In this document: piece after piece, positions 731-64,000 of the stretch | How positions within the stretch are numbered: the first letter of the stretch is position 1 | Layout of the letters: each line of letters opens with the position of its first letter | NCBI RefSeq assembly: GCF_014633365.1 | Contig: NC_068340.1 | Span: 42,607,758 to 42,671,757, forward strand | Direction of reading: 5' to 3' | DNA length: 64,000 nt | Source: Diospyros lotus | Taxonomy: Eukaryota > Streptophyta > Magnoliopsida > Ericales > Ebenaceae | Notes under the pieces: generated by a model | The model's database searches: none | Seen by the model: only the letters and a program-made list of their open reading frames with translations | What the model was told of the DNA's origin: nothing | Position numbers and translations under genes: made by a program

Positions 731-3700
731 CTGGGGCATCTGCCATGCTCCTGGAACATTCAATCTTGAAGCCACAAAAACCTGCAAGTTACTCAAAGAG
801 GATTACCATCTCTTGACATGCATCTATAAAGTTGTAATAAATTGAAATAAGAGGAATGTGGACTCTAGGTAACAAATAAATCTAATATACTTCATAACCC
901 ATCACCCTCCCTACTTTCCCCCCAGCCTCCATTGATTGAACCCCCATAGTCAAGACATGAATATAATATATTATCAGGCATGAAAGGAGAAAGAAGACAT
1001 TAGAAGGCTGAGGTATCCACATATTTGGGTGTCCTAGATACAGTTTTCTTGACCAAAATTTCAGTTCTTTCTGACAATAGAAAAAAAAGTAGTTTAAATA
1101 CACTTCAGAAATTGTGCACCATTAACCTAATTTTTGGGCCTTTAATCAACAAGTGCAACAAGTGGTTCCTAGATATTCTCTCAGACAAAATGAGGATTGA
1201 GGATGGCATCAACCTGTATATATGTATTTGTGGGGTTAATATTGAAGAAATTCAAAGTTGGTAAAGTGTGCCAAAACTAAGAGATTCATGCCTCTTTGCT
1301 TCAGAACTATGCAGGATACTACTAAAGAGAAAAAAAATTGCAAAAGAACAACATCAAGGGCCTGTTTAGATGTAGAAAACATTTTCTCTCCAATTTTCTA
1401 TTGAATAATTGAATCTCCAACTGTAAAATAGAAAACTCAATTTTCTAATTTTTCAATTTTATACTATGAATTGGAAAACATCAAAAAGATCGTCTAAATT
1501 TTCTGGAAAAGAATGCTATTGCTTTTTGAAAAATGAAATGTTAGAGCATGTTTAGTTGTAAAATTGGAGTTGAAAAATTAGAAAATATTTTCTATAACCG
1601 AACATATAGTGTTTATAGATCTAGAAAAGGCCTATGATAGGGTCCCTAGAGAAGTATTATGGAGGGTTTTAGAGAAAAAAAGAGTCAAAATAGCCTATAT
1701 ACAAGCCCTTAAGGACATGTATCATGGTGTAGAGACAAGGGTCAGAACATGCGGAGGGGATACTGAACCATTTACAACTACAATAGGACTGCATCAAGGT
1801 TCTGCACTAAGCCCATACTAATTTGCCCTAGTAATGGATGAACTCACTAAAGATATTCAGACAGATGTGCCATGGTGTATGCTATTTGCAGACGACATAG
1901 TGTTGGTGGATGAAACAAAAGACGGAGTGAACACTAAGCTTGAGTTGTGGAGAAACAATTTAGAATCTAAAGGATTTAAATTAAGTAGAAAGAAAACAGA
2001 ATATATGGAATGCAAATTTAGTAAAAATGCAAGAGTGGATGATGTTATAATAAAATTAGAAGACCAAATCTTACAAAGAAAAGACCATTTTCGATATTTG
2101 GGATCAGTGATTCAAAAAGATGGAGAAATCCACGAGGATGTCGCACATAGAATTAAGGCAGGTTGGCTAAAATGGAGAAATGCATCGGGGGTGTTATGTG
2201 ATGGTAAAATCCCATTAAAATTGAAAGGAAAATTTTATAGGACAGCTATAAGACCAGTCCTGTTGTATGGCTCAGAATGTTGGGCAGTCAAATACCAACA
2301 TGAGCAAAAGACGAGTGTAGCGGAGATGAGGATGTTAAGATGGATGTGCGAACATACAAGAAAGGATAAAATTAGAAATGAAGTTATTCGTAATAAGGTA
2401 GGAGTAGTGCCAATTGTGGAGAAGATGAGAGAGACTAGACTAAGATGGTTTGGTCATGTGAGAAGGAGACTAAGAGACGCTCCTGTGAGGAGAGTTGATG
2501 AAATGGAACAATTAGTCACAAAAAGAGGTAGAGGTAGACCCAAGAAGACTTTGAGAGAGACATTAAAATTTGATATGAAATATATGGATCTAAATGAGGA
2601 TATGACAAAAGACAGAAATACATGGAAGTCTAGAATTCATGTAGCCGACCCCACATAGTGGGATAAAGGGTGGATATGTTGTTGTTGTTGTTGTTTTCTA
2701 TAACTGAACAGACCCTAAGATTCCAATTATGTCACAAAAACCATTTCATAAACAACTGTTTTAGTTTTGGTAAAAGCTTTGGAAACAATTGACCAATACT
2801 TAAAATGGATGATAGGAGCTTAAATGAGCAAGCATGTACATGCAAATATAGGCACCAAGTGAACACACACACATATATATGCCACTGTATAGATATGCAG
2901 CAGTGCAGCCAATATTTTCTCAGACAGATCAAAGTATCATCTCATTATTTATTCACCGATTCTTCTTCCATTAAATTCAGGAGTTCACCCCATATGCAAT
3001 CATGCCATTTCTTTTATATGGAATCACAAATTGATTCCAGGAAACACATTTTAAGACTGATTCCAAAAAAATATGACAGTATCACCCCCACTTTAAATGC
3101 AAATAAATGAAATCTTCACCAAGATGACATAAATCAGATGACAGGGAGATACATAAAGATAACCTATCAATTCAAGATGCAGCATTAATGAAGCACACAT
3201 GCACGTGCATGAAGAAAGGGCATCAGGAATAGTCCTACTCCTAGCATGTCCAATGGGTACCCTGGTAACCTTTTTTTTTTTTTTTTTGTGATACAAGAAA
3301 GGGTCAAGGAAAGGCCAATATCTATGTTTAAAAACTTATAATTGGCATATAATCTAAATACTTGATTTGATAAAAAGTAATAAGGATCTTCAAACAACTA
3401 AAATTTTACTAAGCTGTATATTTAGACTCAATACTTAATGGATCTATTGACTAAAGAATGATAATGACTGCACTAATTAATCTCCTTTATTTTCAAATAC
3501 TAAAGATTGAATCAATCTATATTGCTAAAAAATTATAGTTTAGAACTTTTCATGTATTGACTGAAGAAAGTTGACAACTGCCCTAGCAAATCTCTCTCTC
3601 GCTGTGCGTGCAAAAACCACACAAGGACTTTTTAAATGCAGCAACTTAAAAGAAAAGTATGTCGGAATTTTTTTATCAATGTTAGTTGAAGAAGATTGAC

Positions 3701-7894: not shown

Positions 7895-10088
7895 ATGGAT
7901 GGTGATGATCAAATTTCGAGAGGAATCCCTAGTAATGTTAATGAGGAATCCATCTCACAATCATAATCAAAAAAGCCTAAAATTTTAACCTCTGATGTGT
8001 GGAACCATTTTGTGAAAATTGGTGTTGGTAGTGATGGCAAACCAAGGTGTAAATGCAAGGGGTGTGGTAAAGAATATTCATGTCCATCTAAATCAGGAAC
8101 CTCTCATTTAAGTCGTCATATTCCTAAATGTATGATGATTTCTAAGTATAATGATGCGGGAGATATGTTTATTGATTATGAAGGGAAGTTGAAGAGAAAA
8201 AAATTTGATCCTAAAGTAAATCGTGAACTTATTGCTCAGATGATTATTTCACATGGTACTCCCTTTAATATGGTTGACTGGAAGGGGTTTAGAAATTACC
8301 AAAAGTTTCTGAATGGACATTGTAAGTTCATTTGTAGAAATACTGCTAAAACGGATGTCTTGAGAACATATGAAATAGAGAAAGAGAAGTTAAAACAACA
8401 ATTGGCCCAAATTCCTGGTAGAGTTTGTTTGACTTTTGATGTTTGGACTGCATGCACTAATCATGGATTTATTTCTCTTACTGTTCATTATGTTGATGGC
8501 AATTGGAAGTTAAATAGTAAGATATTGTCATTTGCTCATATGAAGCCACCACATAGTGGACATGAATTATCATTGAAGGTGTTGGAATTTTTAAAGGATT
8601 GGGGATTGGAGAAAAAAAAAATTTCCCTCACTTTGGACAATGCCACTTCAAATGACAACATGCAAAATATATTGAAAGAACATTTAAATTTGTCGAATAC
8701 TTTGTTGCTTAATGGAGAGTTCTTTCACATTAGATGTTGTGCTTATATACTGAACCTTATTGTTCAAGATGGTTTGAAGGTAGCTAGTGAGGCATTGCAT
8801 AAAATAAGACAAAGTGTTCATTATGTGAGGGGTTCAGAAGCTAGGATGAGACAATTTTATCAATGTATTGAGCAAGTTGGTGGAATTGATACAGGAATTG
8901 GGTTGAGACCGGATGTTGTCACTAGATGGAACTGCACCTACATAATGCTTGAGAGTGCACTCAAGTATCGTCGTGCATTTCATAGTTTAAGCTTATGTGA
9001 TAAAAATTATAGGTGATGTCCATCAAGTGATGAGTGGACAAGAGGGGAGATAATTTGTGAATTCTTGAAGCCATTTTATACTATCACTAATTTGATTTCT
9101 GGATCCTCTTACCCTACATCTAATTTGTATTTTGGGGAAATTTGGAGGATAGAGTGTCTCTTGACATCTAACTTGGAAAATGATGATGAGTTGATTGCAA
9201 GTATGAGTGCAAGGATGAAAGAAAAATTTGATAAGTATTGGAGTGATTATAGAGTGGTTCTTGCATTTGGGGCGATTCTTGATCCAACCAAGAAGTTTAA
9301 CTTTTTGAGGTACACTTATTCAAAACTCAATCCTTATAACTATGAAGAGAAGTTGGAAAGGGTGAAGACGGCTTTGTATAGGCTTTATGGTGAATATGTT
9401 AACAATGGTTTATCAAGTTCAAGTTCAATGCCTTCCTCAAATGTTAGTGGATCACAAATTTCCATTGGAGGTGAACAAGCAAAGAAGTCAAAAAATATAT
9501 ATGATGTAAGTCTATATTTTTTGAAAACACTTGTTCATATATAATTGATATAAATATTTGCTTGACTATTTTTTTGATTATTTGATAGGATTTTGAAGCA
9601 TTTGATTGCCAAGTTTCTAACGATGCCGAAAAATCCCAACTTGATATTTATTTGGAAGAGCCAAGGATTCCAATATCGGGAGCATTTGATGTCTTGACAT
9701 ATTGGAGAGAGCGAGCTAATAAAGGGAAAATTATTGCAAAGATGGCTTGTGATATATTGAGTATTCCGATAACAACCGTAGCATCGGAGTCCGCTTTTAG
9801 CATTGGATCTCGTATTTTGAACAAGTATAGAAGTCGTTTGCATGATGAAACAGTTCAAACTCTCTTGTGCACACGGAGTTGGTTACATGGTTTTGGAGGT
9901 AATTTTTTTTAAACTTTCTAATATCTAGGATTTAACATAATATTAAACATTTCTCTTATATGATAAATAATTAACATATGTAATTTTTTATTATAGATGA
10001 TGATGAGGAGGAGGAGTCAAGCATTGATGATATAAGACTTTCTAAACAAGACTCAAATGTTGTTGTTGATGAAGAGGATGAAGATTAG
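7895..10088 (+). pseudogene. hAT transposase (BED zinc finger, RICESLEEPER-like), two nonsense codons
   Basis: This is the transposase of the surrounding element. Exon 1 is 7895-9505, exon 2 is 9589-9898 and exon 3 is 9997-10088 (stop TAG 10086-10088). Introns are GTAAGT...GATAG and GTAATT...TATAG, and phases agree. The product would be 670 residues, close to the usual 650-750. A BED finger (CKCKGCGKEY ... HLSRH) lies at about residues 45-75. Catalytic-core Asp residues are in LTFDVW (about 182) and LTLDNA (about 248). The C-terminal dimerisation domain reads ITTVASESAFSIGSRIL. The end is acidic. Two in-frame stops break it: TAA at 7964-7966 and TGA at 9014-9016, the latter probably once Trp. 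No frameshift was found. The start is the first ATG in frame; the long open frame would otherwise begin at 7997. The copy is recently inactivated and could still be mobilised in trans. Confidence 0.9.
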
Positions 10089-28910: not shown

Positions 28911-30662
28911 CATTACAAGAAAAATCGTATTTAACGACGAAATTTTGAGACAGAATTATTCCGTTGCTAATTAGTGACAAATAACGACAGAATTTTCGTC
29001 CCTAATTTTCTAAAATATTTTTTAATTTAACTACGAAATTAGCGACGAAATACTCGTCACTAAATTTAGCGACGGAATTTGTGACGAAAATCCCGTCGCT
29101 AAATTTTAATTTTTTTTTAATTTTTAGCGACGGGAGTAACCCCGTCGCTAAATTTAAATTTTTTATTTAATTTTTTTTATTTTTTAGCGACGGGTCACTC
29201 AGTCGCTAAATTTTAATTTTTTTATTTATTTATTTTTATTTTTTAGCTACGGGAGTAAACCCGTCGCTAAATTTTAATTTTTTTATTTTTTAGTGACGGG
29301 AGTAACCTTGTCGCTAAATTTTAATTTTTTATTTAATTTTTTTATTTTTTAGTGAATTTGAATTTTTTTATTTAATTTAATTTTTATTTTTTAGCGACTG
29401 GATTGACCTGTCGTTAAATTTTAATTTTTTTTTATTTTGTAGCAACGGAAGTAATCCCGTTGCTAAATTTTAATTTTTAATTTTTTATTTTTTAATGAAT
29501 TTAAATTTTTTATTAAATTTTAATTTTTTTATATTTTTTAGCGACAAGATCACTCCTGTCACTAGAAATTAAAAAAAAAATTAAAATTTAGCGAAAGGGT
29601 AAACTCTGTTGCTACAATATAAAAAGAAATTAAATAAAAAAATTAAAATTTAGCGACGGGATCACTCCCGTCCCAAAATATTAAAAAACAAATTAAATTT
29701 TAGTGATGGGTCAACTCGTCTCTAAAAAAATAAAAATAAAAATAAAAATAAAAATAAAATTAAAATTAAAGAATTAAAATTTAGCGACAGGGTCTACCTA
29801 TCGCTAAAAAATAAAAATAAATAATTAAATAAAGAATTAAAATTTATCGACCGAACAAACCGTCACTAAAAAATAAAAAAATTAAATAAAAAATTAAAAA
29901 AATTACATTTAAACATATCACAATAATTTTTACTAACATTAATATTAGTAAAAATTAAACTAATAATTTTTTAAATATATTAAAATTAAAATAAAAATCA
30001 AAACATAATTTTTCACTCCTAATATAATAATTAATAAAGTTTTATTTAAATTAATAACGAAATAAAATTAAAATTAATATTCATTTCCGTTTACTAATAT
30101 TAAATATTAAAATTAATATCATTAAATAAATTTGAGAAATTTTGGTGTATAAATATAATTATGAAATATTTGAAAGAGAATAGTATAAATATATTTTATA
30201 CATATCAATGAACAAGAAGGCTTCCAAATCGGGTGGCTCACGCTCGAAACTTGATCATGAGAGGTTGGGGGTCAATCCCGTCGCTAAAAAATAAAAAAAT
30301 AAATGAATTAAAATTTAGCAACGAGGTAGATTTAGTCACTAAAAAATAAAAAAAATTAAATAAAAAATTTTAATTTAGCGACGGGGTTAACCCCGTCGCT
30401 AAAAAATAAAAAAATTAAAATTTAGCAACGGGGTCAACCTTGTCGCTAATTCCGTCGCTGATTAGCGACAGATACAACTCCCGTCGTTGATTCCGTTGCT
30501 AAAATACTCCCGTCGCTAACCCTGTCGCTAAATTTCAACGACGCCCTTTTTAGCGACGGAAATGTGCCTGTCACTAAATTCGTCGCTAAATTTTTTAGTG
30601 ACGATTTGTTTATGTTTTAGCAACGAAATTTTTCGTCACTAAAACGTTGATTTTTTGTAGTG
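28911..30662. mobile_element. CACTA-type element, non-autonomous
   Basis: The left end is CATTACAAGAAAAATC. The right end, reverse-complemented, starts CACTACAAAAAATCAACG. The 3 bp duplication GCA flanks it (28908-28910 and 30663-30665), as CACTA elements make. The 1752 bp body has no coding frame. It consists largely of TAGCGACGGG and CCCGTCGCTAAA words arranged as many small inverted repeats. It interrupts the Copia element between gag-pre-integrase and integrase. Confidence 0.88.
29040..30600. repeat. array of TAGCGACGGG inverted-repeat units
   Basis: More than a dozen imperfect palindromes of the type TTAGCGACGGG ... CCCGTCGCTAAA are separated by AT-rich spacers such as TTTTATTTAATTTTT. 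They form the CACTA subterminal region extended over nearly the whole element. Confidence 0.85.
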
Positions 30663-34327: not shown

Positions 34328-36902
34328 CTCTCCATAAAAACCTCTGCCTAGACGAAGCTTGAAAACTTTTTAATATAAAGTAGTCCTGCAGCAGAAATAT
34401 GGCGAGCAGATATAGAAGAATTTCCTTTGCTAATTAAATCTGCTCTAACTTTTAACATGAAAGCAATGATGCAAGTGAGAAGGTGAAACAAATAACGGTT
34501 TGTTGCATTATGCTCTAGATGCAGATTATGAAAAAAAAAAAAGAAAAAAGATAACACCCTGCAGCCAATGATAAAGTTGCAGTGGTGCACACATCTGTTA
34601 AAAACCTCATTATATGTCCATATCTGATCTGCATGAATCAGTTACAGTGAAAATATTAACTCTGACTGCTTGATCCCAACAACAATGATTTCCCATAAAT
34701 TTGATTTTCATACCTAGAATAGTAAATGCACGCTTCAATCAGTTTTGAGAATTCTGCCACAGATAAGAGAAATAGACAGCATGACACAATGTAAACATTG
34801 TGGCAAGCTCAATTTTTATTTTTTGCCTCCATAAATTTCCCAAGCAATAAATTATCTGCATTACCATTGTGATGATAGAGGTATTATTTGTAAAGACATG
34901 AAAATTTTAATCCAGACCATTTAATAAATCATCATGTGCAGAAAAATAGAACGAATCATACCTCAGTTGGAGACAATCTAAAGGAGGTCATGACAAAATT
35001 CAAAGAAATCCTGTTAACAGGTTGGTGCAAGGTTGTTGCACCAAGTAAGGAGAATTGGCTAATGAAACTAGTATGGTAAAGACATTGATAAAAGGAAACA
35101 GTTACTCTCAATATGCAAGGAAAGTAGCTCTCTTGATGAATTATTGGTATACCACCAATCCTTTCTTTGCCTTGAAGTTTGAAAAGTTAAAATAATAATT
35201 TTTACTGATTTGAAATCCAAAATTGAGCTAAACCTGTTCAGAAATGTGTGGATTAGTGATGCAGTTCAGCATTGGACGCCATTCACCCAGTCCAGAGTTA
35301 AATGCTTTAGTGTTTGGTAAGCTCCATTGACAAAGATCTCCGTGTTCAATGTAATTCAAAAAGCAACTCAACACGATCTCAATCTTTTGGGTGTAAGAGA
35401 CTTATGGCCTCTCCCTGTTATACAAAACAGTAAAACATTAATAATGAAATCATATTCATCCTAGAATTGTAATCCAGCTGGGTCATTTCATATAGTTTGG
35501 CTTTAATTCCAAACAGGCTAAGGCCAAAAGCACAATTCCACCACTTTAATTGCATGAAATTATCATATTTTCATGCAATTAATGTCCAGTTCACATCTAA
35601 TAGTGCACTACAAAGGACCGCCTCATGTGTTTTAAGCAGCATAGAAGAAAAACATTCCATTTCAAAGTATCCCCCAGCTTCGACGCGTTCTTGTTATGCC
35701 TTCATGACTTCGTAGTAAAATGATAGTGAAGTTGCAGCAGAGCAAGGCGATTAAGGTGATCGCATAGGAGGAAGGGAAAAGTTAGAAAGGGTTAACTTTG
35801 CAGTACCAAACATTAAGATAAACAGAACAAGGAAAGTGTAAATAACAAAATTTGCAGTATTTTATATGTTTACAGCATATATACAGGTACAATTTCGTAA
35901 TGCATGTTGTGAAAACTAACTAATTATATATCAAAGAAACAGAGTCTGAAAATGCACTACGTATCCATCCATTTAACTGCAACTATATATGTATATGTAT
36001 ATGTATGTATGTATGTATGAATGCTGTAAAAACACTGCATGCTCAACAAAGCAAACAAAACAAAGAAAGGAAGAAAGATTGGAAACTGGAAACTAACATA
36101 CACGAAAGGCTGGTTCTCAGTTGGAAATTGGTGAAACACAGTAAAATGGGCTTATAATGCAGCAGACAGAGCTGGTAGTCGTCACCCCGGCCCACGTTGC
36201 TGAAGAGGGAAGCCACTGATGCTGTTGTTTGCTATCACTGCAACAGCAAAAGTTGTGGGTCTTCAATGGTGTACTTACCGAGGCAGTGATCTGATCTGAT
36301 GGCAGTGGTTTCACAGACAAGGCAAGAAGAGAGTGTAGGAGGTGTGGGAAACTTTGGAAGGGCATAACTTTGCGCTCGGTGGACCGTTTTGGGCAATTTA
36401 GGCATCTATTTTGGGTAACTTGGCTCAAATATTATTCAATGAATAGAGGAGGAATGATGCACTGATATTTATAAAAAGACAATAAACTAACCAACTAACA
36501 AATTCAAAACTGAACTAATCTCAGTTGTACAGCTAATATTTCAGCCAATTGTAAGCCATCCTTACAAACTCTGTGGGCTGCACGCAGCAGTGGAAGATTG
36601 CTCAGGCTTTGTGCTAAGCTGTACTGGGATATTCTCTTCAACATGGGGCTTTGTTATGGGCGATACTACTCGACCTCCAATGAACCAAATTTATAAGCGT
36701 AGAAATAAACCCAAGACTGAATCATTCCTATTTTGATTAGAATATAGGATTATTTCTATTCCAAATTTTAGTTAGTTTCTTATTACTATTATGAGTCTTT
36801 GTTTTCCTGTTGGATTAGGAGACTGCAGATAGTTGCTATTTGTCTCCTAGTAGGAGTCTTTTAGGGTTTGATTATAAATATTTTCTTGCGGTGATTAGAA
36901 GA
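34328..36902. other. no gene identified; one exon-like frame
   Basis: On the minus strand 35234-35400 is open and reads SLPNTKAFNSGLGEWRPMLN before CAG|GTTTAG, which looks like a real exon, but I do not recognise the family. At 36300-36415 is wording (AACTTTGCGCTCGGTGGACCGTTTTGGGCAATTTAGG) that recurs in altered form at 53094-53135, so it belongs to a dispersed repeat. From about 36651 the sequence TGTTATGGGCGATAC looks like an LTR start. Its probable 3' end, TTCTCTCTAACA, is at about 42200, beyond the Copia insertion, but no target duplication was found. Confidence 0.4.
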
Positions 36903-37181
36903 TGTTGAAAACTGGAACAAGCAATAAGAATAAAGCTTGGATTGGAAGAACTCGGAAGAAACACACCTTTCGTCTTTTTCCTTGAATATACCATAAGGTG
37001 TTTAAATAGACTAAAGTTCCTATAATTTAGGAAATTTAAAATACAAACAAACTTATTTAAAATCCAAATACAACAACATATGTAATAACAAATCTCCTAA
37101 ATTTTAGAGATAGATAAGATCTTATCTCCTCCTAGATTTTAGAGAGATTGGAGGCATTATCGATATTATTATATTTCAACA
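36903..37181 (-). repeat. 3' LTR of the 5.2 kb Copia
   Basis: It starts TGTTGAAAACTGG and ends TATTTCAACA, with inverted TGTTGAAA/TTTCAACA tips. It is the same length as its partner and differs from it by six substitutions and no indels. Confidence 0.95.
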
Positions 37182-37192
37182 CTCCCCCTCAA
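37182..37192 (-). promoter_or_regulatory. polypurine tract of the Copia
   Basis: In minus sense the sequence TTGAGGGGGAG directly abuts the 3' LTR, the standard plus-strand DNA priming site of LTR elements. Confidence 0.85.
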
Positions 37193-40100
37193 GCTGAGGA
37201 ATGAATATCTATCATTCCAAGCTTGCATATTAGATCTTCAAACCTCTTGGCTGCCAAGTCTTTTATGAATACATCAGCTACCCGTTCTTCAGATGACACA
37301 CGAGGGATATAGATTAGTCCTGCATCCAATTTTTCTTTGATAAAATGTCGGTTTATCTCAATATGTTTTGTCCTGTCATGTTGTATAGGATTGTGTGCAA
37401 TGCTTATAGCGGATTTGTTATCACAAGATAACTCAATTGCTTCCTTAGTTTTTATCTTCAAATCGTCTAGGATAATCTCGAGCCATAACAATTCACATAT
37501 TCTGAGGGCCATAGCCCTAAACTTTGATTCTGCACTTGATCTAGCCACAATACTCTGTTTCTTACTTCTCCAAGACACTAGATTCCCACCTAGGAATACA
37601 CAATATCCTGTGGTTGATCTTCTGTCAGTGATAGATCCAGCATAGTTTTTATCAGTAAAGCCTTTAACATCAATTTCCCTTTCTCTTCTAAACAATAGAC
37701 CTCTACCTGGATTAGTCTTGAGATAGCTAAGTATCATCCTTACAGCTTGCATGTGCTCCTCAGTTGGGTTATGCATAAATTGATTCACGAGACTGACAAC
37801 AAAGGTAATATCTAGTTTAGTATGAGAAAGATATATTAATTTGCCCACTAACCTTTGATATCTACCTTTGTCAATCGGTTGACTCTCAGGATTCTGCCAT
37901 AGTTTTCTATTAGGTTTCACTGGGACACTAGAATCCTTATCTCCAGTAAGCCCTGTTTCAGCAAGTAGATCCAAAATATATTTACGTTGAGATAGGAAGA
38001 TACCATCTTTAGAGTAGGCCACTTCAATGCCCAAAAAATATTTGAGGATACCAAGCTCCTCGATTTCAAATTCTTGAGCCAAATTCCTTTTTAGCAGTAT
38101 TTGTTCCTCCTCATCATCTCCTGTCACAATTATGTCATCCACATATACTAGCAAGGCTATAATTTTTCCTTCTTTTGAGTGCTTCATGAAAAGTGTATGG
38201 TCACCCCGGCTTTGACTGTGTCCCATAGTTTTCATGGCTTTAGAAAACCTCCCAAACCAGGCCCTTGGAGATTGTTTGAGCCCATAGAGAGCTTTCTAGA
38301 GCCTACATATTTTTTCCTTTTCTTTTTCTTGAAATCCTGGAGGCAACTCCATGTATACTTCTTCTTCTAAGTCTCCATGAAGAAATGCGTTCTTAACATC
38401 AAATTGTTGTAATGTCCATCCAAAACATGATGCCAAAGAAATCAAAATTTTTACTGTTGCCATCTTAGCTACTGGAGCGAATGTTTCAAAATAGCCTATG
38501 CCATAGGATTGAGTGTATTATTTGGCTACTAAGCTGGCCTTGTATCTGTCCTATGTCCCATCAGCCTTGTATTTTACATTAAAAACCCATTTGCAGCCTA
38601 CTGGCAAAACCCCTCTTGGTCGTGACACAATTTCCCAAGTCTGATTTTTATTTAAGGCTCTCATCTCTTCCATCATGGCTTGCTTCCAATTCTGATATCT
38701 TTGGGTCTCTTCTACTGAGTTAGGAATGACAATTGAATCCAAAGATGGTAGGAACCCTTTGTGTTTTTGAGATAGCCGGTGGTAGGACAAAAAATTGGTT
38801 AGAGGATGTTTGGTACAGCTTCAGACACCCTTCCTAAAAGCAATAGGAAGATCTAAATCATCAAAGCTTGGGTTAGAAAGATTAGAGCAGTCCAAAACAG
38901 GAAGCTGGGAGTCTGAAATAGGAAGCTGGGATTCATTTTCTGGGATAAAAGATTGTATAAATTCCTTACCTTGAATAGGATCAGATGGTGACACTTGCTG
39001 TGGTTCCAGGATAGGCTGTCTTCTTCTGAAAACATAGAAAGATCCCTTAAATCGGCCTGGAAGCTGCTGAAGCTGCTGGCTGGATTTCTGGCTTGGTAGC
39101 TGCTGAAGCTGCTGGCTGGATTTCTGGTTATGAATCTCAGGATCAATCTGAGATGAGAGGACTGGAAGAGGAAGGAAGTTGTTGAGATGGAGAAATATTA
39201 GGTAGTTGAAAAATATCCCCAACCGCTGCCTGGTCACCATCCAAATGCTCCCCCTGATGACCAGTCTGATGAGAAGAGAAAAAGGGTTGGGTTTCAACAA
39301 ATGTAACATCCTTTGAGATATAAAATTTCTTTGTCGTTGGATGATAGCATTTGTATCCTTTTTGGGTAGGTGAATAGCCTAGGAAAACACACTTTAGGGC
39401 CCTTGGATCAAGTTTGTCTCTGTTTTGCTTGGGAATATGGACAAAAGAGACACACCCAAAGACCTTTAGTGGAAGAGGAGAATGTTGATTTAGATCTGGA
39501 TAATGATTAGATAGAAGCTGAAATGGTGTTTGATGGTTTAAGGTTTTTAAGGGTACACGGTTTATCAGGTAGGTTGCTGTAAGAGTGGCTTCTCCCCAGA
39601 AATTTTTAGGCACATTATGATGATGTAGGAGACTTCGAGCAACATTAAGCAGGTGTCTCATCTTCTGTTCTGCCACTCCATTTTGTTGTGGAGTGTGGAC
39701 ACAAGAAAACTCATGAATGATCCCTTCTTGTTGAAAGAATTGATGCAAATGATTGTTAACATAGTCCTTTGCATTATCAGTTCAGAATTTCTGGATTGGA
39801 TACTTGAATTGAGTGGAAATTAACTTACAGAAATATGGCAAAATGGTGCTAACAACAGCCTTTTCTTTTAATAAAAAAACCCAAGTCATTCGAGTACAAT
39901 CGTCAATAAATGAAATAAACCATTGAGCCCCCGAACAATTTGGTATTTTAGAGGGCCCCCAAAGATCGGAATGAATCAAAGAGAAAGGTGTAGATGATCT
40001 CTTATTACTAGGGGGATAGGACACTCGGTGATGCTTAGAAACCGCACACACATCACACTGAAATTCACTAAGGTCTAGGGACTGAAACAAAGAAGGAAAC

Positions 40101-55842: not shown

Positions 55843-56440
55843 CTATAAGAATCAGGAGCAAGCAAACTGAGGATTTTTAAGAAAAAAAATAAAAATAAAA
55901 ATCAAGGCTTGAGCCAAGCCTTGTGGCATGCTTTGCGACAGTGTGCCGCAAGGCCTTGTGGCCCGGCAGCCACAAGGCTTAATGGCCTTGAGGCCACGCC
56001 TTGTGGTAGAGTGCCGCAAGGCCTTGTGGCCAGGCTTTTGGCCTTAAGGCCACGCCTTGCGACAGTGTGCCGTAAGCCCTTGTGGTCTCGCCTTGGGGTA
56101 ATGAGCTGCCAGCTCTTGCGGCAGTATGCCACAACCTATTGCAAGTGTCTTACGACAAATGCCCTCGCGGTAAGCCCAAAGATATCTCAGCGAGGTTAAG
56201 ACTTCATTTAGGAGATGCCACGTGTCAGCACCAAGCATTCTTGAGAATTGCGCCCTATAAAAACCCAACTACAAGACAATGAATAGGACTTCCGATTTGG
56301 GTAAAATTTTGACACCTTGACGACATTTTCACTGTTTTCATGAATAGTTATTTGGATCTGGTACTGACATAGGCATCGGAGGGTCATCGTGGGCGAGGAT
56401 TCCTGGGAGCCTTCTAATCAGTGTCTGAGTATCAACAGGG
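55843..56440. other. GC-richer stretch with CTTGTGGCC repeats
   Basis: From 55905 to 56150 the words CTTGTGGC, GCCGCAAGG and GGCCACGCC recur on both strands, giving imperfect palindromes. Open frames in all directions (for example 55902-56132) follow from this repetition and are not taken as genes. It leads into the minisatellite. Confidence 0.5.
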
Positions 56441-56840
56441 CAAAATCCTAGCTGCAAGAGTCTTGAGGCAAATGAGCTTGTGGCGAAATCCTAGCGGCAA
56501 CAGTCTTAAGGCAAATGAGCTTGTGGCGAAATCCTAGAGGTAAGAGTCTTGAGGCAAATGAGCTTGTGGCGAAATCCTTGGGGCGGGACAGATCTTTGTG
56601 GCAAAGGAGCTTGTGATAAAATTCTTGCGGCGGGACAGATCCTTGGGGCGGGATCCTTGCGGCAAGAGTATTGAGGCAAACGAGCTTGAGGAAAAATCCT
56701 TGCAGCGGGACAGATCAATGTGGCAAAGGATCTTGTGGAGAAATCCTAGCGGCAAGAGTCTTGAGGCAAATGAGCTTGTGGGAAAATCCCTGCGGCGAGA
56801 GTCTTAAGGTAAATGAGCTTGAGGTAAAATCCTTACGACG
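56441..56840. repeat. subtelomere-like minisatellite, 43-47 bp units
   Basis: About nine units alternate two related forms, GCAAGAGTCTTGAGGCAAAT-GAGCTTGTGGCGAAATCCTAG and GGGACAGATC-TTTGTGGCAAAGGAGCTTGTG. They end abruptly at the first telomeric repeat at 56841. The position next to telomeric DNA suggests a telomere-associated satellite. Confidence 0.85.
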
Positions 56841-57192
56841 ATTAGGGTTTAGGGTTTAGGGTTTAGGGGTTTAGGGTTTAGGGTTAGGGTTTAGGGTTTA
56901 GGGTTTAGGGTTTAGGGTTTAGGGTTTAGGGTTTAGGGGTTAGGGGTTAGGGTTTTTGGGTTAGGGTTTAGGGATTAGGGTTTGGGGTTTTGGGTTTGGG
57001 GTTAGGGTTTAGGGTTTAGGGTTAAGGATTTTAGGGTTAGGGTTTTGGGGTTAGGGTTTATGGTTTAGGGGTTAGGGTTTAGGGTTTAGGGTTTAGGGTT
57101 TAGGGTTTAGGGTTTAGGGTTTAGGGTTTAGGGTTTAGGGTTTAGGGTTTAGGGTTTAGGGTTTAGGGTTTAGGGTTTAGGGTTTAGGGTTT
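56841..57192 (+). repeat. (TTTAGGG)n telomeric array, proximal
   Basis: About 350 bp of the plant telomere repeat with the G-rich strand pointing right. The first 95 bp are nearly perfect, 56935-57075 contain many variants (TTTAGGGG, TTAGGG, TTTTGGG, AAGGATTTTAGGG), and 57075-57192 are perfect. The array stops at GGGTTT, where the LINE poly(A) tail (T-run on this strand) begins. Confidence 0.97.
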
Positions 57193-57588
57193 TTTTTTTC
57201 TGTAAATAAGAGATGTATAAAAGAAAAAGGCCAAAGAAGGCTACAAACAAAGGCCAGGGCATACCCCGGGCCACCAAAAAACCAGAGGCGACAACACATC
57301 AACAATCACTCTCTGGGCCAAAAAAAGAAAAAGAAGCAAGGCGACAGAAAAACAAAACATATGTACAGCATAAATGTTCTGACCAGGAGAGAAACAAAAC
57401 CATCTCGTGGTGGCAAGGCAAAGAGAAAGATCTCTGACAGTCCAGCGACTGATAAACCAACAAACCCAGATGAGCTGGGAATGAAAAAAGAATGAAGAAG
57501 AAGCACTGGAAGGCTGGCACGAAAAATGAGGCGCCAAGGATACCTGAACCTGCCTCCAAAGCAACACCTCTCAACAGGGATGAGAGGT

Positions 57589-60500
57589 CTAGTCTCGCGG
57601 AAGTCTCCAAACGTGATGAAGCGCATGACTCTGAAGGGTTGGCCTGAAGTGAATAGTCGTCAGCCGGGCCCACACAGCACACTGAATCAAATGAGCTAGC
57701 TGAGAAGCTGATCTCTGCTGATCCCGAAAACACCTGTTGTTGCGCTCCCTCCAAATGAAATAAACCATAGCATGAAGCACTAATCTGTTTGCCACCTGCC
57801 AGGGACTCTTGCCACTCCATCTAGCTGCGGCCCAAAGAACTCCAATGTCCCATCTGCGCCACGGCCAGTTGAATTTCTTCGATCTACGGAAAAAGGACAG
57901 CACCTCTCGCGAGTAGCTACACTGGAAGAAGAGATGGCTATGTCTCTCAGCGTCCGCCCTGCAAAGGAAACATCTATTCGGAAAAGACAAAAAAATGTTA
58001 ATACGATCAAGAGTAAATAAACGTTCCCGAATAGCAAGCCAGAAGATAAACGAGTAGGCAGGGATACTAACAGATGACCAAACTAAACGGTACCAGGGAA
58101 CCTGGGAGCGCTGAGTTTGAATAGCCTGGAAGGCCGTCCTAACAGAGAAGAGCCCATTTGTAGTTGGGAGCCAATAAGGCTCATCACGACAGCCAGGGTG
58201 GGGCAGACTAGGGAGGCTCCCACAGAGGTCAGGGGATATGGAACTAAGGGTCTCCATCCGAGTCCAGGCACCATCCTCAATAAAATCTGAAACCGTAGCC
58301 AAAATAGGGATACCTAACTGACGAGGTAATTGGCGAGGGAAGCGATCAATGAGCACACCCAACGGGTGCCATTGATCATACCAAAAAAACGTGTTACAAC
58401 CGTCCCCAATTCTCCATCCAAAAAAAGGTTTCAGGATTCCCCGTAATAGGAGCAGCTTTCTCCAATACCAAGGGCAAGCATACGGAGTCTTAAGAAGCCA
58501 GAAGCAAGCCCCTTTTACCCGATAAGTGTGCACCCACTGCACCCATAAGGATTCTCTATCCCCAACCAGCAGGCGCCAAATAAGCTTGGCTACCAAGGAT
58601 TGATTCCAAACATAGAGAGGCTTAAGGCCAAGGCCACCCTGCCTCTTCGGCCAACAAATGTCATGCCAAGCCACTTTTGCTTTATGAGGGTCCGCCTCAT
58701 TACCACTCCAGAGGAAGTTACGAGTAAGTTGCTCAATCTCTTTGATCACCTTCTTCGGGAGGATAAACACCGAGGCCCAATACACATAGATAGTGGAAAG
58801 AATCGACTGAGCTAACTGCAATTGGCCTCCAAATGAGAGAGCCCTGCTGCGCCAAGCACAAATCTTAGTCCTCACTCTATCAATGATGGTCTGACAATCT
58901 CCATAGGAGAGCTTAGAGGAGAGCAGAGGAACCCCCAAATATCTCATAGGCAGACTCCCCCTCCGAAAACCAGAGGCGACATGGATAGCTTCACGAAGGG
59001 ATGGGTCCTTGCAAGAGACGAAACAGTCACTTTTAGATGGATTGGCAATAAGGCCCGACAAAGAGGAAAAACGCTCCAAGCATGACTTCAAGATGCTAAC
59101 CGAGGATGGGTCGCCATGAGAGAACAAGAGCAAATCATCAGCGAACATGAGCATCACCGTCTTAGTCTGCTCACATTTCCAATGGTATTGAAAGTCTGAA
59201 TCCCTCGAGTGGTGCTTAACAATACCTTGCAGGACTTGCATAACTAGAACAAAGAGGTAAGGGGACAGAGGGTCCCCTTGCCTCAAACCCCTGCCCCCAG
59301 GGAAAAAACCATTTAACTGGCCATTGATCTTAACCGAATAGCGGGGGGTCGTAATGCACTCTCGAATCTAGCCACAAAAACGGGAAGGGAAGTTCATCAG
59401 ATGAAGAGTCATCAGGAGGAAGTCCCACTCCACTGTGTCATAAGCCTTAGCAAGGTCAACTTTCATAGCACATCGGGGGGCCCCTCGGTGAAGATGGTAT
59501 TGAAAAACTAACTCCTGGGCAAGCAGAACATTATCCCCAATCGAACGCCCTGGCACAAAGGCCGCTTGAGACACATCCACCAATCCTGAGAGCACCGGCT
59601 TAATCCTATTGGCTAAGATTTTGGTTATGATTTTATACAAGACATTACAACACGAAATAGGCCTAAATTGGGAAGGCGTCTCAGGGTGAGGCACCTTGGG
59701 AATGAGACTAATAATGGTGGCGTTGACCTGGCCCAAGAGGCGACCAGAGGTGAAAAAGCTTTGAACAGCCTTAACCACGTCCACCCCCACGATCTCCCAA
59801 GACTTTTTGAAGAACTTAACTGTAAAACCATCGGGCCCCGGGGCTTTATCATCGCCCATATTGAAGAGGGCAGTCTTAACTTCTTCAGCCGAAACCTCAG
59901 CAATAAGCCCAGCCCATTGGTCTTGATTCAGACGCTTGTCAATGAAGGGGGCTACTTCAATCTGGCTAAGGGGAGAGTTCCGAGAACTAGGCCTATAAAG
60001 ATTTTGGAAGTAGGAGACCAAAACGTCTGCAACCTCATCTTTGGACTCAGTGAGGGTGCCATCTTCTCTAAGGAGGTTCATAATGCGATGATTATTACGC
60101 TTAGCGAGCATGGATTGGAAAAAGAAACGAGAGCATCTATCTCCCTCAGCAGACCACCTAATCCGAGCACGAAGGCGAAAGTGGTCAGACTCCTGCGCAA
60201 GAGCCACTAAAAGGTCTCTGTTCAACTCAAGCTCCTGTTGGTGAAGGACAGGGTCATGAGGATTGTCTTGCAAACGATGTTGGATACTAAGAAGATGATT
60301 CCTAAGGGACGAGACGAGATCAGAAACATGCCCCTTAGACCTATTAAGGGTCTTCATAGCATTCTTAACAGCTTTGAGCTTTTGAACAACTTGAAACATG
60401 GGAACTCCAGGGATGTGCCTTGTCCAACTAGCCTCCACCCTATCCAAGAAAAGAGGGTGATCAACAAGATGGTTAAGGAACCTAAACGGGCCGCCCTTAT

Positions 60501-61224
60501 GCTGAAGATCTCCTAACAAAGCCACAACAACAGGGCTGTGGTCAGAAATTCCTGGTTGAAAAAAGAGAGTCTTACTATCCGGATAGTGGGAGAGCCAATC
60601 ATCATTGACCAGGGCTCTATCAAGCTTCCTAAGAATACACTCTTCACCAAATCTCTTATTGGTCCACGTCAACTTAGGGCCACTATAAGCCAGATCCTGA
60701 AGCGAGGCAGAAGAAAGAAAATCGTTAAACCTACGCATACCTAGGGAGAAAGAGGTGTTGCCACCCCTCATTTCAGAACAATCGCGGCACACATTGAAAT
60801 CTCCCATCAGGAGCCAAGGGTCAGAAGAAGCTGCAACCCCAATAGCTGTGAGGGAATTCCATAATCTGGCTTGGTCCACCTCCTCATTCCTAGCATAAAT
60901 ACAAGACATGACAAAAGGGATAGGGATCTCAGGACTCGTCACTTTGACATGGATAGCCTGGTCTGACTTGAATAAGGTCCTCACACTAAGGGCATTCGGG
61001 TCATAACCTATCCAAATACGACCTCCATCACAAGTATCATAGTTGTAATCCCACTTCCAAGAGGGCATAATATTGTGGGAGACATCAGCGGCATGCCTTT
61101 CCTGGACTCTAGTCTCTAAAAGAGCGATGAACATCAACTTCTGAGAAGAAATAAAAGACCGCACCTCAAATTGCTTAGGGGCTTGATTCAAACCCCTTAC
61201 ATTCCATGCTGCAATCTGCATCAT
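57589..61224 (-). pseudogene. LINE ORF2: endonuclease and reverse transcriptase, one nonsense codon
   Basis: A frame of 1211 codons from ATG 61222-61224 to the stop at 57589-57591, broken only by TAG at 59368-59370 (codon 619). An apurinic-type endonuclease fills roughly residues 1-230: MQIAAWNVRGLN, LLETRV, LLMGDFNVCRD and GISDHSPVV are its catalytic blocks. RT follows from about 450: GDDKAPGPDGFTVKFFKKSW, FRPISCCNVLYKIITKILAN, VDLAKAYDTVEWDFL, LRQGDPLSPYLFVLVM and the catalytic FADDLLLFSHG (about 700). The C-terminus has a zf-RVT domain (CFLCRADAERHSHLFFQC). The stop sits where related LINEs have Trp before IREC. Its ATG overlaps the ORF1 stop as ATGA. Everything else looks intact, so the copy is recent. 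Confidence 0.95.
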
Positions 61225-63797
61225 TGATATTCTTGGAGAATCGGGTTCGAACTCGCCGACCCAGGCTTCTGCTCACCTTGCTCACCTTGCTCACGCATCT
61301 TCTTCCTATCCCTTTTAGCCTGAGATTTAGTCTTAGCTTGGTGACCGGCGGAGCTAACACTCCCTGCCCTCTCAGGCTCTAAGATCTGGTCCTCGCTATC
61401 ATCTTGCTCACTCAAGTTGCCTCGAGAGGTTTCTACAGCTACCTCTCCATCTGACTCCATAGGAGATGGGACATCCTTATCTTCTTCTGCTAGAGCACAA
61501 AATTGATTTTTAATATGTTCGTCAACATCCTTAGGGTCATAGGGGACTGTGACGGTATGAAATTCAAGGCACTCTACCATGGTCATGGAGGCATAATTAG
61601 GCACAATCGGCTTAGATGATGGACTGGCTTCCTTACCCTTATCTTGAGCCTTCCCTCTCCTACTTTGCACTCTAGTGAAGCCATCGCTCTCACCAGCTTC
61701 CTTACTACCTTCAGCATTATTAGGGTCTGTTTTGGGTTTCTTGGGACACCGGGAATCTGAATGACCAAAAACCTTACAGTGTGAGCAAATTGATGGGATC
61801 CACTGATATTCTATTGGGAGCCTAGATATACGACGTTCCCCGGTGGCTTCATCATAGCCCTGATCTATATCTATAAACTTGGGGAATTTGGAGCAAGCAT
61901 TAACATCAACACACACCCTAGCGTATCCTAGTCTTGATCTATCCTCTGTCATAGGATCAGCATACAATGGTCTTCCTATTTGACTTGCCATTATAGAAAT
62001 TCCTTTCAACGACCAGCCTTCTAGGGGCAGGTTATGGATCTTAATCCACAAGGGAATGGAAGAGTGGGAATCCTTAGCTAAGTTCATTCCTGGTTCCCAA
62101 CATTTAATAATAAATGGGCGACCCGCAAAATGATACGGACCCTCATCAAACACTCCCAGCATACTTTCTTGGGAATCAAAGCGAAAAAAATAAAATCCAC
62201 TATTATTCGATAGGACCTCTATAAGACCATGGCTTTGCCATAGTCTCTTGGCGATATTTTGAACCACTGGGAAAGGCAATCGCTTTTCAATGAAATATCC
62301 AACCAACGTATTCATCCAATATTCGGTACATTCGTCAATAACATCGCTAGGTAATTTAACAAGAGGGATTTCAGACGGCGTACCTGAGGGCGGAAAAAAA
62401 TCCAATCGGGTGGGGCTTCGATGGGCCCTAACCTCCGCAACATTGGCCCATGATTTATTGGGCTGCAATAAAGGATTTCCATTGGGCTGAATTGGGCCAA
62501 CAGGTTGCTGGGCATGCGCATGGTTTCTTTTAAAATGGCCTTGGGCCTTTGGTCCAATTTGGCCATGGCTTTGTGGGCCCGCATGCTGGGATAAATGGCC
62601 CTTTGGAAGGGCCCCACGTCCAACCTGATGCTGTCCAAGAGAAGAAGGCCCAGCAACCACATGCTGGGCTCCACGAGCGGACCCCACGATCGGCTGGCCC
62701 AACTCGACGAAGGAAGCTGCACGCTGGGCGGCTTGTTGCTGCTGCTTTTGCATGGAGGAAACCGGGCCACGTGGGCCACTTGGGCCTTGAAAATGTCGGC
62801 CATTAACGTGATGGGGAGATTCTCGCATGTGAGGCCCACCATCTTCAAAGCCTCTAGCTGTATTCTTCTGCAACGATCTGCCTGCAACAACGTGGTTGCT
62901 CCGGATATTGCGCCATGATGGATGCGACCAGTCACCATCTCGAGGGTCATCCCTTTGCTGCAAATGGGAGGGAGCTCGGGGAGGAGCACTGTTCGAGGTC
63001 TGAGACTTACCAAGTTGGGCTGCTGTTTCTTCACCCGCAGCTGGCAACGGAGCCGCCGACCTCTGCAACTTCTCGCCGATCTTGTTGATGGAGCTCAAGC
63101 CGACTTGAAGGAGGCTCCTGTTGCCCTCCTGGTTCGCATCTTGGCTCCCCCCTACCACTCGCTCACTGCCTGGGTCCTCATCGCCACCAGTTTGGGATGG
63201 CAGAACTCCCATGACAGCCTCAGCATGCGGCGAGGGTGACTGCACTTCGACAGAAGCTTCTGCACATGGAGGAGGTTGTGCATGACCACCATTCAGCGGA
63301 GGGAAGGCCGAGGGATCACCAAAGTCGAACCTCCTCGGGTTTCCTCCACCCTTCCCGGCCACTCCATTGGCGTCACCTTGCGTTGCTGCTTCTGCAAGCA
63401 GCAACTCGGCTTCTTCTAGCAGCAAGAGATCGTCTTCTTCAGCAAACCGAGCTTGCTCACCCGCCATTATCGCACCACCATCCGCACAAGTCTCCATCAC
63501 CATCTGATCTTCTTCACTGTACGCGGCATTATCCTTCCAAACCTGTTCCGACAGCATGCCTCGTACTTCATAGCTACTATAATCTTCACCCATGTTAACT
63601 TCAGAACTTGCTGCTTCCATCCCTCCATTTCCAGCCTCTAAAACACCTTCATTACTCGATCCTCTCAAGCTCGAAACAGCTGGATTCCGCGTCAACAACC
63701 TGTTAATATGCTTGGTGATGCCCCCGTTGCTTCGGCCTAAGGGAGGCCGACTTCTTGGGCGTGATCTCGCCGGCGGGGACCGGCGGGAACGCGCCAT
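61221..63797 (-). CDS. LINE ORF1: DUF4283 and CCHC zinc knuckle, long N-terminus
   Basis: An uninterrupted frame of 858 residues from ATG 63795-63797 to TGA 61221-61223. The start was chosen as the first ATG (MARSRRSPPARSRPRSRPPL); the frame is open to 63845 without another ATG. Residues 1-480 are low-complexity: an Arg/Ser-rich head, an acidic EEDDLLLLEEAELLLAE stretch near 125, then a Gly/Gln/His/Pro-rich region. DUF4283 spans about 485-640 (TEYWMNTLVGYFIEKRLPFP, FRFDSQESMLGVFDEGPYHF, PLWIKIHNLPLEGW). One CX2CX4HX4C knuckle, CSHCKVFGHSDSRC, lies near 670. A charged tail follows (QAKRDRKKMREQGEQ). From family knowledge plant L1 ORF1 proteins bind RNA and form the RNP. The N-terminal extension is longer than I would expect. 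Confidence 0.93.
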   Translation of the reverse strand: MARSRRSPPARSRPRSRPPLGRSNGGITKHINRLLTRNPAVSSLRGSSNEGVLEAGNGGMEAASSEVNMGEDYSSYEVRGMLSEQVWKDNAAYSEEDQMVMETCADGGAIMAGEQARFAEEDDLLLLEEAELLLAEAATQGDANGVAGKGGGNPRRFDFGDPSAFPPLNGGHAQPPPCAEASVEVQSPSPHAEAVMGVLPSQTGGDEDPGSERVVGGSQDANQEGNRSLLQVGLSSINKIGEKLQRSAAPLPAAGEETAAQLGKSQTSNSAPPRAPSHLQQRDDPRDGDWSHPSWRNIRSNHVVAGRSLQKNTARGFEDGGPHMRESPHHVNGRHFQGPSGPRGPVSSMQKQQQQAAQRAASFVELGQPIVGSARGAQHVVAGPSSLGQHQVGRGALPKGHLSQHAGPQSHGQIGPKAQGHFKRNHAHAQQPVGPIQPNGNPLLQPNKSWANVAEVRAHRSPTRLDFFPPSGTPSEIPLVKLPSDVIDECTEYWMNTLVGYFIEKRLPFPVVQNIAKRLWQSHGLIEVLSNNSGFYFFRFDSQESMLGVFDEGPYHFAGRPFIIKCWEPGMNLAKDSHSSIPLWIKIHNLPLEGWSLKGISIMASQIGRPLYADPMTEDRSRLGYARVCVDVNACSKFPKFIDIDQGYDEATGERRISRLPIEYQWIPSICSHCKVFGHSDSRCPKKPKTDPNNAEGSKEAGESDGFTRVQSRRGKAQDKGKEASPSSKPIVPNYASMTMVECLEFHTVTVPYDPKDVDEHIKNQFCALAEEDKDVPSPMESDGEVAVETSRGNLSEQDDSEDQILEPERAGSVSSAGHQAKTKSQAKRDRKKMREQGEQGEQKPGSASSNPILQEYQ

Positions 63798-63867
63798 ATG
63801 CGCTGTTTTCGTCGGAATAGCCACAAGACCTTCAAGTTCTCTCAAGGTAGAGAGAGAAACAAAAGAA

Positions 63868-64000
63868 GGGGTTTGGTTTAGGGTTTTAGGGTTTAGGGTT
63901 TAGGGTTTAGGGTTTAGGGTTTTAGGGTTTAGGGTTTAGGGTTTAGGGTTTAGGGTTTAGGGTTTAGGGTTTAGGGTTTAGGGTTTAGGGTTTAGGGTTT
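63868..64000 (+). repeat. (TTTAGGG)n telomeric array, distal, to window end
   Basis: Telomeric repeats with the G-rich strand pointing right run from the LINE 5' end to the last base. The first units are slightly altered (GGGGTTTGGTTTAGGGTTTTAGGG); the rest are nearly perfect. Whether this continues to a chromosome end cannot be seen. Confidence 0.95.

Follow-up and report, generated by a model that had tools for sequence, protein, structure and literature searches.

We examine here a stretch of 64,000 nucleotides of the Diospyros lotus genome (hereafter the window, C3:42607758-42671757), the last base of which is the assembled terminus of the chromosome-scale contig C3 (42,671,757 bp), and the long interspersed nuclear element (LINE) that lies next to this terminus. 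This element belongs to a family of which most of the scored close copies reside in telomeric repeats at chromosome ends, in a fixed orientation. We consider that it is a plant L1-type family specialised for telomeres, which probably inserts into telomeric repeats through a nick made by its own endonuclease and is, in addition, targeted to telomeres. Throughout, contig ends are assembled ends, and some of them bear stretches of N.

The window LINE is full-length, of L1 type and about 6.68 kb long (57190-63874, minus strand), and it has TTTAGGG arrays on either side. The original prediction, made from the letters of the window, had described this very succession of (TTTAGGG)n, a T-run, a nearly intact minus-strand LINE and again (TTTAGGG)n. 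The layout is confirmed, with one in-frame stop in the second open reading frame (ORF2), and the outer array was indeed found to run to the assembled end of the contig (Table 1).

Distribution, class and coding state of the family

The DNA of ORF2 was used as a query of 901 bases, for which 40 of 118 candidates were scored. Among the scored copies at 84% identity or more, 28 of 31 lie within 81 kb of contig ends and three are interior, whereas none of the nine at 78% identity or less is near an end, all of them being interior (Fisher p = 8e-7; tandem copies are not independent, so this and the other p-values given here are too small). The 5' end is distal in all 28 near-end copies, 16 of which are on the plus strand at left ends and 12 on the minus strand at right ends. 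The original prediction had called for a tabulation of the 3' untranslated region (UTR) with its flanks, and here too the close copies proved to be mostly telomeric: a query of 507 bases (40 of 110 candidates scored) gave 41 matches, 30 of which were fetched, and 26 of these lie 5.8-42.5 kb from a contig end with their A-run on telomere-like repeats, while four show neither feature. Among close copies, then, the family does not lie mostly at random non-telomeric sites, the outcome that had been named as speaking against it.

A 21-base pattern of the 3' end occurs at 79 places with up to two mismatches, its reversed control at two. With zero or one mismatch, 25 of 35 places are within 45 kb of a contig end, and in all 25 the 5' end faces that end (16 contig ends covered, including that of the small contig C30). 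With two mismatches, 2 of 44 places are within this distance, and the remainder mostly resemble other LINE families. One interior 3' end, 176 kb from the C5 end, is also 5'-distal and is flanked by degenerate telomere-like repeats. With the 5'-end query (575 bases, 30 candidates) there were 32 matches, and for 21 of these a contig end is no more than 78 kb away. In an unrooted tree of 15 rows, which are a chosen sample, eight telomeric and three interior close copies are set apart from four dispersed relatives by a branch with 100/100 support. A 3'-end tree of 30 rows was set aside: rows containing non-LINE sequence gave it long branches, and the four interior rows fell in different parts of it.

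When the results of the ORF2 query, the 3'-UTR query and the 21-base pattern are combined, contigs C1-C15, which have 30 ends, carry a family member at 17 of them, and C30 carries one as well. The left end of C3 is counted as occupied on account of a copy 80 kb inside, behind an N stretch. The right end of C7 finishes in a LINE recognised only via a second type of 5' half, at 74% identity, and is perhaps an eighteenth occupied end. As for the 12 remaining ends, ten have at most one repeat unit in the terminal 600 bases and the other two read as N, which points to a probably incomplete assembly at these ends. At about 77 kb on C3 (L046), a telomeric array and a LINE 5' end stand beside an N stretch, perhaps misplaced in scaffolding.

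The copies may also form chains. The first 50 kb of C8 (C8:1-50000, without N) contain five LINEs head to tail, every 5' end being distal, with telomeric tracts between them, and several other tracts of the genome run directly into the 5' end of another LINE. At 99.96-99.97% identity, the three distal copies of this C8 left end hardly differ, and a variant-repeat block is common to the tracts that separate them, which makes tandem amplification, and not three insertions, the most likely origin. Two of the three hold complete ORF1 and ORF2, and the ORF2 of the third is split into two frames. The two inner C8 LINEs hold inserts of about 2.5-2.6 kb of unassigned sequence (L063 and L064, C8:24494-27012 and 35491-38125).

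Nonsynonymous (Ka) and synonymous (Ks) divergence was estimated from one pair only, the window copy and one C8 copy. For ORF2, Ks is 0.126 and Ka 0.012 (Ka/Ks 0.094), with ratios of 0.10 in the endonuclease (EN) part (residues 1-240) and 0.054 in the reverse transcriptase (RT) part (residues 481-770); ORF1 is looser, at 0.49 overall. The value of the EN part means that the endonuclease has been maintained, and ORF2 as a whole appears to be under strong purifying selection in this pair. To judge from these coding sequences, the family seems to be functional now, or to have been so until recently. The first 330 residues of ORF1 are an exception, with a Ks of 0.7-1.2 between the two copies whereas the aligned remainder of the element is about 96% identical; this hyperdivergence makes an exchange of 5' halves, and thus mosaic copies, likely. 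A second kind of LINE 5' half, starting near CATGCGGGAACGGCC and 66-87% alike in blastn pieces, was observed at chromosome ends at L009 (C8 right end), L087 (C7 right), L093 (C15 right), L092 (C14 right) and L097 (C11 right), and at the right end of C8 it seems to begin the copy that has L019 as its 3' end.

In terms of content, the element is of plant L1 type: its ORF1 has a DUF4283 domain and a zinc knuckle (below the Pfam cut-off), its ORF2 an APE-type EN, an RT and a zf-RVT domain, and it ends in poly(A). An ORF1 with DUF4283 and knuckle, an ORF2 with EN, RT and zf-RVT and a poly(A) tail are marks of plant L1 elements. The residues aligned with the motifs of the human L1 EN (N, E, GDFN, D and SDH), which have established functional roles in that enzyme, are all there. 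Human L1 ORF2p is the best PDB match to the first 618 residues of ORF2 (E 6e-28), with R2 proteins at E 6e-8 and no R1-clade protein among the ten matches. The domain search assigns the EN to Exo_endo_phos and not to the restriction-like type of the MoTeR elements, and the presence of DUF4283 and zf-RVT would favour plant L1 over the R1 clade. A protein-database search with ORF1 gave nothing significant among 7995 scored candidates, in a database that we infer to hold few or no plants. The element is a telomeric LINE in its behaviour and a plant L1 in its parts.

Junctions and the mode of insertion

The A-run is joined to telomere-like repeats in all of the 29 near-end copies read (25 pattern places and four more diverged ones), and the phase of this junction, which the original prediction had proposed to compare, is nearly constant, a unit start of the CC(C) type following the A-run. 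The distal junctions read fall mostly at CC or CCC. In the two arrays of the window, TTT/A is found at 51 sites on the G strand and at none on the C strand, which has 61 sites of the CCCT/AA type, each offering a single T to poly(A). This means that an ordinary L1-type nick yields the same orientation as priming from a chromosome end, so that orientation alone does not show end-priming. A single chance insertion would accordingly show the very orientation to which the original prediction had drawn attention. The phase of the poly(A) junction was likewise dropped as a test of end-priming, as both models predict it to be identical.

The explanation that we favour, and regard as probable, combines nicked insertion with telomere targeting. 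The RNA-protein complex of the LINE would be directed to chromosome ends by a putative targeting step, where its endonuclease would act on TTT/A sites in duplex telomeric repeats and nick the G strand. The resulting TTT-3' end would pair with the poly(A) tail and prime reverse transcription, and the second strand would be joined at or near a neighbouring CCC, as the 5' junctions suggest. The outcome is the one observed: a 3' junction that is G-strand-primed in form, a proximal poly(A) end, a distal 5' end and telomere-type repeats on both sides. Repeated insertion, along with local tandem amplification as at the C8 left end, would then build chains of LINEs and telomere repeats in which the telomerase-type repeats persist.

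Interior copies show how the same lineage inserts elsewhere. The three for which both flanks were read (C6:43.5M, C1:17.6M and C5:19.7M) are ordinary insertions with target duplications (Table 1), and their nicks read TTT/AAG, GTT/ATTT and TTT/GG, respectively. At the telomeric copies, if as many as 15 additional bases are tolerated, a copy's two flanks resemble each other more than flanks taken from different copies do (a likeness as great arose in 6 of 5000 permutations). This is consistent with insertion into a pre-existing array; an equal age of the flanks could cause this likeness too. Human L1 EN has been found to cut TTAGGG repeats in vitro (PMC10887698), and the duplications of full-length human L1 inserts are usually of 10-20 bp (PMC4245944). 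At the window copy, the 13-bp candidate duplication GGTTTAGGGTTTT was rejected as proof of internal insertion: exact matches of at least 10 bp occur at the junctions in 28% of cross-copy comparisons, and where the repeats are tandem and perfect, such a match comes easily and is not diagnostic.

Several observations weigh against the explanation that we favour. Target duplications are not demonstrable in the telomeric copies: of the 13 pairs of flanks tested, a set in which the near-identical C8 left copies account for three, only 4 have an exact junction match of at least 10 bp. Counted by eye, 4 of 16 distal sides begin with a regular unit, compared with 20 of 26 proximal ones (Fisher p = 0.0014; two identical C8 left junctions were entered once), and such irregular units are not predicted by a simple target duplication. 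They may come from extra bases at the 5' joining, from a telomere-like 5' tail of the RNA or from rebuilding by telomerase. Moreover, 10 of the 35 3' ends at zero or one mismatch are interior, and nine of these have no telomere-like flank. Finally, TTT/A sites are common everywhere, so the sequence taste of the endonuclease alone cannot explain the preference for telomeres.

The second of these sources, an RNA that starts in the distal repeats and thus gives the cDNA an end ready for telomerase, similar to the 5' terminus of MoTeR1 with its telomere-like sequence, fits either mode of insertion, so its odds overlap those of the other readings; we hold it to be possible, if not the expected case. 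It draws on junction motifs that miss a T, such as CCCAAAACCC joined to ATTCTTC, which are alike in several copies on different chromosomes. However, the third C8 left copy has a regular 5' junction despite being 99.96% identical to copies 1 and 2, and the C3 and C13 copies, which are 98% identical in the 3'-end query, differ at their 5' junctions. A fixed telomere-repeat 5' UTR as part of the LINE was rejected for this reason, as it differs between near-identical copies.

The original prediction had left undivided the choice between a chromosome end used as primer and the targeting of telomeric DNA. As a pair, these hold against chance, with 28 of the 31 close scored copies near ends; between them, we judge nicked insertion to be likelier than end-priming. 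In the latter, the TTT of a 3' G-overhang would pair with the LINE poly(A) at the chromosome end and telomerase would recap the product, the LINE acting as a backup extender in the manner of HeT-A and TART. This is rather unlikely in our view, although it predicts the same orientation and the same 3' junction, the irregular first units of the 5' junctions resemble, in our judgement, new repeats on a non-telomeric end, and the C8 left copies are stacked in one orientation with the more diverged ones inside. What counts against it is the EN, conserved under selection in the pair compared, the target duplications of close interior copies, and the likeness of same-copy flanks, with the same reserve as to equal age. 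It is equally doubtful that the family forms a hybrid plant telomere system, in which an end-primed L1-type LINE, recapped by telomerase, would help to maintain the ends and might carry a telomere-like 5' tail as a seed for telomerase. The innermost copies, 2-5 repeats from unique DNA, were considered as landings on eroded ends and this argument was rejected as confounded, because tract L003 abuts an apparent LINE 5' end and L012 abuts what resembles, by eye, a primer-binding site of a long terminal repeat (LTR) element.

It is very unlikely that the LINE is a passenger which descends from one or a few founder insertions and was carried from end to end by recombination or break-induced replication within the telomeric repeats. 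Orientation would be kept automatically and local amplification does occur at the C8 left end, with its near-identical copies and common variant block, but the contrast between Ks and Ka of ORF2 in the C3 and C8 copies is not expected from passive copying alone, the A-runs vary between copies, and close copies with target duplications are found inside chromosomes. Lastly, chance insertion of a dispersed LINE into an interstitial array, which the original prediction had kept in view and which the window alone would permit, or an assembly artefact, to which the N stretches and the 12 of 30 chromosome ends with no copy seen could point, is hardly credible: the distribution of the scored close copies near ends, in a single orientation, refutes chance, a one-off chimera is not needed when both junction types recur on many chromosomes, and N is absent both from the window and from C8:1-50000.

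Other arrangements of the repeats were observed on the way. At L058 and L059 (C13:40.355M and 40.369M), repeats of the G strand run head to head into repeats of the C strand, and the 5' end of a LINE comes next; this arrangement occurs twice and is possibly the relic of a telomere-telomere fusion. At L095 (C1:54506600-54508050) and L089 (C11 right end), there are long blocks of the variant TTCAGGG, followed at C1 by regular TTTAGGG near the end.

Comparison with known telomeric elements

HeT-A, TART and TAHRE of Drosophila lie in tandem chains at chromosome ends, with the poly(A) end proximal and the 5' end distal. The proximal poly(A) and the tandem end chains are common to the present family. 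Unlike them, it has TTTAGGG-type arrays between and beyond its copies, so that telomerase repeats are not replaced, its EN is under selection (one pair), and neither strand of the window LINE has a motif of the guanine quadruplex (G4) type, that is four runs of at least three G; a G4 strand bias was dropped as a candidate feature for this reason. TRAS and SART of Bombyx mori, which are R1-clade LINEs, share with it the residence in telomerase-type repeats and a poly(A) junction of fixed phase. TRAS inserts between C and T of the CCTAA strand (PMC7265360), and most distal junctions read here are also at CC or CCC. By contrast, the present family is of plant L1 type by domain content, has some interior insertions, three of them with nicks at other T-rich sites, and lives with the host repeat TTTAGGG.

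In MoTeR1 and MoTeR2 of Magnaporthe oryzae, the 5' ends are always nearest the chromosome end, in head-to-tail arrays with telomeric tracts between, and a telomere-like sequence stands at one terminus, shown at the 5' end (PMC7367193). The 5'-distal head-to-tail arrangement is common, whereas the MoTeR elements are CRE-like with a REL-ENDO and the present family has an APE-type endonuclease and plant L1 ORFs. Zepp and Zepp-like elements of green algae are likewise L1-type LINEs; a title cited in PMC8226300 places Zepp in the telomeric region of Chlorella, and PMC10088271 lists it. Zepp and Zepp-like copies form nested, often 5'-truncated clusters that mark centromeres (PMC8226300), unlike the present family with its many full-length copies and telomeric tracts between them. 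L1-CS of Cuscuta europaea is concentrated in the CUS-TR24 satellite via L1-like target sites, with an orientation bias and shifts of 13-16 bp between ends (PMC8091179). Its target is a satellite in heterochromatic bands and that of the present family is the telomere, and it may serve by analogy as a good model for a plant L1 colonising a tandem repeat. The Penelope-like elements of rotifers and Selaginella are also telomere-associated retroelements, with a plant among their hosts (PMC12477314), but they are not LINEs, whereas the element described here has an APE-type EN and an RT that appears to be of L1 type.

Telomere-resident retrotransposons have been listed for insects, Giardia, Chlorella, the blast fungus, rotifers and anole (PMC10088271). 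As for plants, a 2025 review of transposon localisation states that no Drosophila-like telomeric retrotransposons have been found; it gives Selaginella Penelope-like elements and subtelomeric Retand as examples, and suggests that G4-forming motifs are probably a prerequisite (PMC12477314). Searches of open-licence PMC papers brought up no land plant in which LINEs embedded in telomeres had been described. The present family would be a telomeric retrotransposon of a plant, at 17 (perhaps 18) of 30 ends, with a window copy devoid of a G4 motif of the above type. As coding-intact copies and dispersed sister lineages coexist in one genome, the step from dispersed L1 to telomere could be mapped to parts of the proteins, and the family offers a system for asking whether LINEs add telomere length in a plant that keeps its TTTAGGG repeats.

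Features of the window and its surroundings

Table 1. Coordinates of the telomeric LINE, its flanking arrays and the target duplications of interior copies (window positions unless a contig is named)
Feature	Position	Strand	Remarks
Proximal telomeric array, (TTTAGGG)n	56841..57189	+	50 TTTAGGG-like units, 29 exact, partly degenerate; final 16 units unbroken and perfect (57078-57189)
Left copy of best target-duplication candidate, GGTTTAGGGTTTT	57181..57193	+	not diagnostic within a tandem array
T-run of 10, LINE poly(A) tail	57190..57199	-	up to 3-4 T's possibly target-derived
LINE 3' UTR	57200..57588	-	copies found genome-wide
ORF2 (EN, RT, zf-RVT)	57589..61224	-	open save one in-frame TAG, 59368-59370
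zf-RVT domain in ORF2	57901..58149	-	domain search
Endonuclease domain, about the first 240 residues of ORF2	60505..61224	-	
ORF1, 858 aa, open	61221..63797	-	ATG at 63797; stop overlaps ORF2 start (ATGA)
CCHC knuckle in ORF1, CSHCKVFGHSDSRC	61746..61787	-	weak, under Pfam cut-off
DUF4283 domain in ORF1	61908..62264	-	domain search
Short 5' UTR, pyrimidine-rich start	63798..63864	-	start set by comparison with other copies
Irregular telomere-like bases at 5' junction	63865..63874		LINE start or first distal repeat
Distal telomeric array to the end of contig C3	63875..64000	+	126 bp; 15 TTTAGGG and 2 TTTTAGGG units
Right copy of target-duplication candidate, GGTTTAGGGTTTT	63875..63887	+	followed by AGGG
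Target duplication, AAAGTTACATGCACTAC	C6:43.5M		interior copy
Target duplication, AACTACTTTCTCTT	C1:17.6M		interior copy, extra bases at 5' joint
Target duplication, about GTGTAATTAA	C5:19.7M		interior copy, 452-base 3' fragment

Rfam and tRNA scans of the window gave nothing reaching their thresholds. On its proximal side, the telomeric array is adjoined by a 43-base tandem repeat (56439-56833). Further inside, the window holds a piece of another non-LTR reverse transcriptase, with a FADD motif in its translation (1834-2658, plus strand), open reading frames that resemble, by eye, a zinc-finger BED/hAT-type transposase (7997-9544, plus strand), and a cluster of A/T-rich tandem repeats with the recurring palindromic motifs TTTAGCGACGGG and CCCGTCGCTAAA (29024-30532).

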